A stretch of DNA of 35,608 nt from Deltaproteobacteria bacterium (GTDB taxonomy: Bacteria > Desulfobacterota > DSM-4660 > Desulfatiglandales > HGW-15), in the NCBI GenBank assembly GCA_016930835.1, contig JAFGGA010000186.1:1-35608 (forward strand), in the 5' to 3' direction. The position numbers and the translations under genes were made by a program. Positions 10,084 through 11,439 of the stretch are shown piece after piece; within the stretch, counting starts at the first letter, position 1; each line of letters begins with the position of its first letter. Under the pieces are notes generated by a model. The model searched no databases, was not told where the DNA came from, and saw only the letters and a list, made by a program, of their open reading frames with translations.

Positions 10084-10269
10084 TTAATACCTGAATCTTG
10101 CACCAATTATCGTAGCGAGGCCCCGAAGGCCTGACTATAAAGCGAATTTGGAGTGATTTTGACCCGCAGGCATATTATCTATATGGTGAGGATCAAAATC
10201 ACGAAACAAGCTTTATAGTCAAGGCACTTCAAGCCGCAGCAGATGATTGGTGTAAGATTCAGGTATTAA
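10084..10269. repeat. 186-bp near-perfect palindromic element (family D)
   Basis: The 24-nt arms at 10084-10107 and 10246-10269 are complementary except for one base (core ACCTGAATCTTG / AGATTCAGGT). Inside, GACTATAAAGC pairs with GCTTTATAGTC and GTGATTTTGA with TCAAAATCAC. A small hairpin, AGGCCCCGAAGGCCT, lies in the left arm. The whole unit can fold into one long cruciform or RNA stem. It starts 12 nt upstream of the EFR1 start codon and ends 58 nt before the transposase unit, so it could also sit in the EFR1 leader. Confidence 0.85.
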
Positions 10270-10327: not shown

Positions 10328-10358
10328 TCTAGGGGGGATGTCGATGAAATAATAACTT
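10328..10358 (-). repeat. Downstream inverted flank of the transposase gene
   Basis: It directly abuts, and by one base overlaps, the transposase stop codon. On the - strand it reads AAGTTATTATTTCATCGACA, then TCCCCCCTAGA. It mirrors 11400-11429 with two substitutions and one extra C. Confidence 0.8.
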
Positions 10359-11365
10359 CAGCTTTCCGGCAATGTAAGGTTCATATTTTTTACAATCCTT
10401 TCACCTCTTGACACGGACTTACTGACACCGGATTGGGTGAGACCTAATCGTTTTGCCAGTGAGGTCGCCGTTTCATCCAGTTCGCGCACGGACCAGTAAC
10501 AAAACACACTCCTTGGTTTAATAAGCCGTTTGTATTTACCTTGCGAATATATTTCCCCCGGCTCCATGCCGAATATCTCTTCAACACGTTTAGCCAAAGT
10601 ATCCAGATTATACCCTTTTGATCTTAGCTCAAATTTTCTCTCAAACCGCTCTCCCGACTCTTTAAGGGTATCCAGAACAAACTGGGTATCCCCAAGGATC
10701 CGCTCATCCCCTTTAAGCCGTCTTTCATCTTTCCTCAATTTTCTTGCTTCCGCCCATCCTCCCAGGCTCCTGATAAGACCACCCCCCACAAGATCAGGCC
10801 GTCGTCCTTTTTCAATCCCTTCCAAAACATATTCCTCATATCTCTTTTGAGCAATCTTCTTTTTCCTGCTGAAAAACGCGAGCACATATTTCACATCCTG
10901 CCAGTCGTTTTTTTTGTTCCCAAGAATCACACCATGACCACAATATTTATGTTTACCCAGGTTGGAATAACTTTCAACCACTTTTGCCCTTAATGGATTT
11001 AAATGAATATACCGGACCAATTCAAGAAAATATGGATCTTCCTGACAAAGAATGGATTTGTATCGATTTTGAAAAAGCTGGCCATGACGTTTGTAACGCC
11101 GGTTAAAGGTAACGGCATATCCTGTTAAAAGTCGTCGCATAACCGCTGCGATTGGATAATCTCCGGTTCTTAGGAGAAGATGAACGTGATTTGGCAGTAG
11201 AGACCAGGCATAACAGGACGTGGATGTATGTTTAAGGATATCACCCAGACGATCGACAAAATGATCTTTATCTTTATAGTCTCTAAATATCTTTCGGCGT
11301 TCTATCCCCCTCACCATGATATGATGCAGGGCGCCTGGCGTGTCTATACGGGCTTGTCGAGGCAT
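10358..11365 (-). CDS. REP-associated tyrosine transposase (Y1/HUH family)
   Basis: A 335-aa protein. The N-terminal Y1_Tnp domain starts MPRQARIDTPGALHHIMVRG. It contains the HUH metal-binding motif H60-V-H62 (LLPNHVHLLL). The segment TGYAVTFNRRYKRHGQLFQN followed by RYKS supplies the candidate catalytic Tyr (Y83 or Y91), and VRYIHLNPLRAKVV follows. Such enzymes cut and join single-stranded DNA at REP palindromes. The C-terminal third is an added region ending in a helix-turn-helix-like segment, LAKRLGLTQSGVSKSVSRGE (about 305-325), absent from short RAYTs. All core residues are present and the frame is intact, so it may be active. The ribosome-binding site is weak. Confidence 0.9.
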   Translation of the reverse strand: MPRQARIDTPGALHHIMVRGIERRKIFRDYKDKDHFVDRLGDILKHTSTSCYAWSLLPNHVHLLLRTGDYPIAAVMRRLLTGYAVTFNRRYKRHGQLFQNRYKSILCQEDPYFLELVRYIHLNPLRAKVVESYSNLGKHKYCGHGVILGNKKNDWQDVKYVLAFFSRKKKIAQKRYEEYVLEGIEKGRRPDLVGGGLIRSLGGWAEARKLRKDERRLKGDERILGDTQFVLDTLKESGERFERKFELRSKGYNLDTLAKRVEEIFGMEPGEIYSQGKYKRLIKPRSVFCYWSVRELDETATSLAKRLGLTQSGVSKSVSRGERIVKNMNLTLPES

Positions 11366-11399
11366 GTGGAAATGTTATAAAAGAAGGGGTTTCTTTGTC

Positions 11400-11439
11400 A
11401 AGTTATTATTTCATGGACGTCCCCCTAGACGTCCCCCTA
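11400..11439 (+). repeat. Upstream flank of the transposase gene with tandem 12-bp unit
   Basis: AAGTTATTATTTCATGGACG, then TCCCCCTAGA, is the inverted partner of 10328-10358. It contains the palindromic octamer GGACGTCC. The unit GACGTCCCCCTA occurs twice in tandem at 11416-11427 and 11428-11439. It starts 35 nt upstream of the transposase start codon, so it may double as a regulatory site. Confidence 0.75.

Follow-up and report, generated by a model that had tools for sequence, protein, structure and literature searches.

A probable TIRtron in a Desulfobacterota genome and the predicted reading of its terminal repeats by a DnaA-like domain

Described relatives and the transposase gene

RAYT-like genes enclosed by long terminal inverted repeats (TIRs) with a GGGG motif have been described as TIRYTs or TIRtrons (Di Nocera et al. 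2013, PMC3733652) and their TIRs are moderately repeated and found as dimers and clusters, much like those of the family presented here. In the classification of Quentin et al. 2018 (PMC6006769), these transposases correspond to TnpA_REP subclass 2.1(.2), equivalent to RAYT group 1 of Bertels et al. 2017, and the subclass occurs in 14.9% of strains. Its features shared with the present element are a Y---NP motif, a long protein, a C-terminal Bac_DnaA_C or other helix-turn-helix (HTH) domain and the lack of REPs. The TIRYT class and its DnaA-like C-terminal domain are already described. Regarding the function of this domain, Quentin et al. noted that the TIR consensus is unlike the DnaA box, and considered two possibilities: that the HTH does not recognize the TIR, or that it has acquired a new target.

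The window analysed here (35,608 nt) is the whole of contig C23 in a host genome of 4.7 Mb and 224 contigs. It encodes, on the reverse strand (10358–11365), a Y1/HUH transposase of 335 aa, which was assigned to the TIRYT type by profile searches, family alignment and alignment to DnaA. The protein comprises a catalytic domain (residues ~1–150), a conserved middle domain (~150–250) and a DnaA-domain-IV-like HTH (~253–325). The original prediction of an intact transposase with all HUH residues was confirmed by the ORF and the family alignment, in which the HUH motif (NHVH, residues 59–62; H60-V-H62 codons at 11180–11188, reverse strand) and the catalytic Tyr119 (within YIHLNP; codon at 11009–11011, reverse strand) are invariant or nearly so among 106 aligned members. 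Matches were obtained to PF01797 (Y1_Tnp; E=3.4e-11) and to PF08299 (E=2.4e-4; 21.5 bits, below the Pfam cut-off of 31.5), and the DnaA profile was matched at E≤0.01 by 79 of the 106 family members. The extra C-terminal HTH-like domain, also noticed from the sequence, proved to be DnaA-domain-IV-like when the family profile was compared with DnaA structures.

Combining a Y1_Tnp domain with HUH and Y---NP motifs, a C-terminal DnaA_C/HTH domain and GGGG-type TIRs, the element is most likely a TIRYT, or TIRtron (TnpA_REP subclass 2.1, RAYT group 1). A DDE-type insertion sequence with TIRs was also considered and rejected, since neither target-site duplication nor DDE transposase was found.

Terminal repeats of the element and its family

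An inverted-repeat search and end comparison located the downstream (right) TIR, GGGGGATGTCGATGAAATAATAACTT, at 10333–10358 on the forward strand, and the upstream (left) TIR, GGGGGACGTCCATGAAATAATAACTT, at 11400–11425 on the reverse strand. These 26-nt arms are 92% complementary and 1,041 nt apart, and the match lengthens to GTCTAGGGGG(G)AYGTCSATGAAATAATAACTT if one indel is allowed. The inverted flanks first noticed are, therefore, real, and the downstream arm does adjoin the stop codon, but the upstream arm ends ~34 nt before the ATG rather than at the start. Outside the left end, the tandem 12-bp unit that had been reported is also exact, with GACGTCCCCCTA present at 11416–11427 and again at 11428–11439 (forward strand). 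It is an 'echo' that duplicates the TIR edge together with its flank, one of many such duplications in the family, and its interpretation as a recognition code was rejected. The palindrome GGACGTCC, proposed as a candidate recognition sequence, is found in only 50 of 179 family elements and is one of many variants, so it was discarded as a recognition core.

Throughout the 4.7-Mb genome, the inner 15-mer AAGTTATTATTTCAT occurs only at the two window ends. With up to 3 mismatches, TTATTTCATGGACGTCCCC gave 10 genome matches, compared with 0 for the reversed control; these include a second element on contig C169 (82% identical, with TGA at codon 3), ends beside remnants (C42 and C143), stand-alone ends and a 60-bp copy on C118 that consists of two facing ends and nothing else. 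On C42 (L017, G000), the end remnant adjoins the end of a different element type. Single TIR arms do not fold better than shuffled sequences (−1.10 vs −1.21 kcal/mol), while the paired arms of the C118 copy do fold (−22.7 kcal/mol). Recognition of a single arm as a REP-like hairpin is, therefore, unlikely and, given that GTAG-type REP hairpins are also absent from the flanks, the term RAYT in its REP-associated sense had to be abandoned in favour of the TIR-associated sister class.

Of 99 near relatives, 82 carry homologues of the transposase, as do 241 of the 395 genomes sampled from the host phylum as a whole; the named relatives are mostly Desulfobacterales/Deltaproteobacteria MAGs. From 237 full-length elements, we retained 179 with recognizable ends on both sides, a minimum left–right match being part of the selection, and these support the original view that the repeats delimit a unit. 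From end to end, the unit measures ~1,089 nt (5–95%: 1,063–1,116), its left end lying ~58 nt upstream of the ATG and its right end reaching or containing the stop codon in most elements (within 30 nt in 134 of 179). The window gene is preceded by a promoter-like TTGACA-16-TATAAC (11374–11401, reverse strand), with the −35 box at the inner edge of the left repeat, and a consensus promoter scan returned TTGACA-18-TAACAT; a promoter-like pair with its −35 box at the same edge was found in 107 of the 179 elements using a lax pattern. Because TTGACA directly adjoins the upstream repeat, autoregulation of the gene by an end-bound HTH, suggested as a possibility from the sequence, is plausible.

The ends share the layout G(3-5)ACG-N4-T-N13. 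Numbering the first base of GGGACG as 0, the constant block 0–5 served as the anchor; positions 6–9 are variable, position 10 is T in 177 of 179 elements, and positions 11–23 are variable but A/T-rich, position 15 being A or T in 99%. The variable bases are alike at both ends of one element and unlike between elements, with a left–right identity of 91%, against 59% when permuted, in a set for which a minimum left–right match was part of the selection. Among 100 elements, left–right agreement was 92% at position 9 (32% permuted) and 94% at position 11 (31% permuted).

A non-coding element of 186 bp (10084–10269), bounded by 28-nt inverted repeats (TTAATACCTGAATCTTGCACCAATTATC), lies beside the transposase. 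Allowing ≤1 mismatch, its terminal 14-mer is found 56 times in the genome, in many cases close to the end of a contig, and the element thus resembles a high-copy MITE at which the assembly is interrupted. Rfam searches returned no match for this element or for the window.

Covariation between the HTH domain and the inner repeat

The family profile matches DnaA structures and, in the alignment to 1J1V, numbered here after the known E. coli DnaA residues, K277 corresponds to R399, T301 to P423 and residues 310–316 to 432–439, with one residue missing. DnaA contacts bases through residues 399, 423, 432–435 and 438–439 (PMC5043019); its helix occupies the major groove over TnCACA, and Arg399 reaches into the minor groove over TTA (PMC5742627).

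Similarity of the inner TIR tracks similarity of the HTH: among pairs at least 50% identical, and controlling for the rest of the protein, the partial rank correlation was 0.41, while it was 0.03 for the Y1 domain and 0.10 for the middle domain. The top mutual-information pairs (residue–TIR position) were Q311-9, K218-7, S312-11, Q96-7, Q311-17 and K316-11. The best single residue–base pair did not exceed the maximum of tree simulations, in which TIRs were evolved on the protein tree; significance rests on predefined sets and windows. The residues equivalent to the DnaA contacts R399, P423, 432, 434, 435, 438 and 439, a set drawn up from published DnaA work, though only once the results of a first covariation scan were known, covaried with TIR bases to a degree reached in 0 of 1,000 simulations (p=0.001) and also beat entropy-matched columns (p=0.0003). 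For the recognition helix (residues 309–318, LTQSGVSKSV; codons at 10412–10441, reverse strand), located by covariation and the DnaA alignment, the score against TIR 9–13 was 5.57, compared with a simulated mean of 1.83 and a maximum of 5.24 in 1,000 runs (p=0.001); no significance was reached against TIR 6–8 (p=0.79) or 14–23 (p=0.21). A scan of the whole protein in 10-residue windows against TIR 9–13, which is independent of the chosen contact set, peaked at residues 311–320 (4.00; simulation maximum 3.84 of 150). Among 89 independent pairs, the helix effect was modest (r=0.25, p about 0.04). Because the codons of the helix lie outside the repeats, the covariation is not a coding constraint.

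At the level of single positions, Gln311 goes with A9 (51/56), Val, Leu or Ile311 with T9 (23/24), Asn311 with G9 (6/6), Pro312 with A11 (43/59), Lys316 with A12 (29/29), Arg316 with C12 (36/56), Arg277 with A15 (98/115) and Lys277 with T15 (47/61). Both the window protein (Q311, S312, G313, K316, K277), with its ends (A9, G11, A12, T15), and the C169 copy fit this code. Contacts of glutamine with adenine and of hydrophobic residues with thymine are familiar from other DNA-binding proteins, and the Gln–A and Val/Leu/Ile–T pairs are chemically sensible. Searches for fresh elements at the order and class levels led back to the same 85 genomes, so the 42 held-out elements are mostly ones left out of the training set. 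For these, one or two residues predicted the base in 80% of cases at position 9 (majority baseline 55%), 72% at position 11 (20%) and 79% at position 15 (42%). The residues gave no advantage over prediction from the relative most similar in the remainder of the protein (75%, 80% and 76%).

These covariation data indicate that, as originally suggested, the HTH most likely binds the repeats. The predicted site, TTATTTCAT (TIR positions 17 to 9), lies at 11406–11414 on the forward strand in the left end and at 10344–10352 on the reverse strand in the right end. It appears to be laid out like the DnaA box TTATNCACA, with K277 at the AT-rich half and the recognition helix at the other. A reading of TIR 6–8 by the middle domain was also tried and set aside (partial r 0.20, not significant in the tree simulation). 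At position 7, Gln96 goes with C in 64 of 72 cases and Lys218 in 83 of 99, neither being significant in the tree simulation; residues 96, 216 and 218 possibly form a second reading surface for TIR 6–8 across the catalytic and middle domains.

The correlation could have arisen simply because gene and ends travel together, in which case any protein column would correlate with the TIR. The elements are indeed vertically related, and single pairs score as high in the tree simulations, but the Y1 domain, which shares the same tree and ends, has almost no partial correlation, the recognition helix is unrelated to positions 6–8, and the DnaA-contact set exceeds both the simulations and the entropy-matched columns. 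We, therefore, regard shared ancestry as an improbable explanation. Somewhat less improbable, although still doubtful, is that the two ends match because they base-pair on single-stranded DNA in one stem, as in REPINs, the protein recognizing stem and edge. The folding of paired but not single arms is in keeping with this, and HUH enzymes act on single strands. The HTH would then have another job, such as replication-fork targeting, which Quentin et al. (PMC6006769) proposed for this domain. Covariation of the variable bases with DnaA-contact residues is not, however, expected from pairing alone and, since a paired stem is duplex DNA too, the stem is compatible with reading by the HTH.

Very unlikely, finally, is a domesticated single-copy RAYT with flanking REPs (a REPtron), immobile as a unit. 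Distant homology is evident in a match to NF047646 (REP_Tyr_transpos; 68.9 bits), but this lies below the model cut-off of 80, the flanks have no GTAG-type hairpin repeats, and the element is multi-copy, with transposase-family matches numbering 10 in the host genome and 83 in genome G203, including near-identical copies at unrelated sites.

Mobility, proposed mechanism and comparison with known systems

The window copy, first described as possibly active, has an intact gene, but most other copies in the host genome are broken or partial. In G203, two element types are each represented by near-identical copies in which the similarity ends at the G run and the flanking DNA is unrelated, indicating that the family moves. 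These many copies (L218–L266) make G203 a good system for studying movement. Target-site duplications did not occur above chance (8 direct repeats observed vs 7.2 expected). Tandem flank-plus-end echoes were detected at 29 of 351 ends and at 0 of 2,296 control positions; Di Nocera et al. (PMC3733652) described REP clusters reiterated together with flanking DNA, so the echoes are probably the same phenomenon. Slippage at the ends and nicking with rejoining by the enzyme are candidate origins.

Joined flanks fold at −3.14, not clearly better than permuted ones (−3.00 ± 0.13), and insertion into hairpins as a general rule was discarded, although an inverted match of the outer 5 nt was seen in 7 of 98 elements (0.9 expected). 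Comparison with relatives yielded no fully clean empty sites, only diverged cases: at L318 the alignment to G313 crosses the junction at 71%, at L340 the insertion is accompanied by a local deletion of ~125–205 bp and seems to have taken out both edges of the gene, and at L295 the relative has a terminator-like hairpin at that site. Spread on phages or plasmids was likewise rejected, with 2 viral contigs and no close plasmid relative. By eye, the flanks of L301, L294 and L334 (G292, G372, G443) contain repeats resembling integron attC near a RelE-like gene, and on contig C79 of G103 two family members (L324 and L409) lie in opposite orientation ~0.5 kb apart.

We consider it probable, at roughly 0.7, that the element is a TIRtron with bipartite ends, in which the DnaA-like HTH reads the inner TIR code and the nuclease domain the G-rich edge. 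The IS-like unit of ~1.09 kb would comprise a single HUH transposase gene between its two inverted ends. Its outer constant block, G(3-5)ACG, would probably be recognized and cut by the Y1/HUH catalytic domain, and the inner block (positions 9–17) would have evolved into a DnaA-box-like site that the HTH binds in double-stranded form, with helix 309–318 reading positions 9–13 and the basic residue 277 the A/T-rich part, as suggested by the observed covariation. With the HTH bound at both ends, the nuclease would be positioned at the two G-rich edges; the unit would then be excised and rejoined at another site, leaving the target unduplicated. At the left end, beside the −35 box, the HTH would also repress the transposase gene. 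Short ends-only copies, such as the 60-bp hairpin on C118, were probably moved in trans.

Whether end recognition is modular throughout this HUH class we judge to be an even bet. The nuclease would read a fixed G-rich edge and the DnaA-like HTH a fast-evolving inner code as duplex, so that four or five substitutions could create a new specificity and the many elements sharing one host could avoid cross-mobilizing each other. If true, mobile elements would have retuned a DNA grip of the replication-initiator type.

Compared with known systems, the ends resemble those of Di Nocera et al., whose motif is GGGGWSAS (PMC3733652), against GGGGACG plus N4-T here; the accessible part of that paper describes no element-specific code common to both ends, no HTH link and no analysis of target-site duplications. 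Nor did the literature searched contain a published link between the DnaA-like domain and an element-specific part of the ends. The element shares with IS200/IS605 TnpA and REPINs HUH/Y1 catalysis, the lack of target-site duplication and short non-autonomous copies, but differs from IS200/IS605 in that its ends are inverted repeats without subterminal hairpins, the single arms being unstructured. With DnaA domain IV (PDB 1J1V), it has in common the HTH homology and the polarity on the site, although the family HTH is one residue shorter before the helix and the family site differs from the DnaA box and varies between elements. What the HTH does in this large subclass had been left open; the covariation gives explicit, testable residue-to-base predictions and favours, of the two options in PMC6006769, the second, a newly evolved HTH target.
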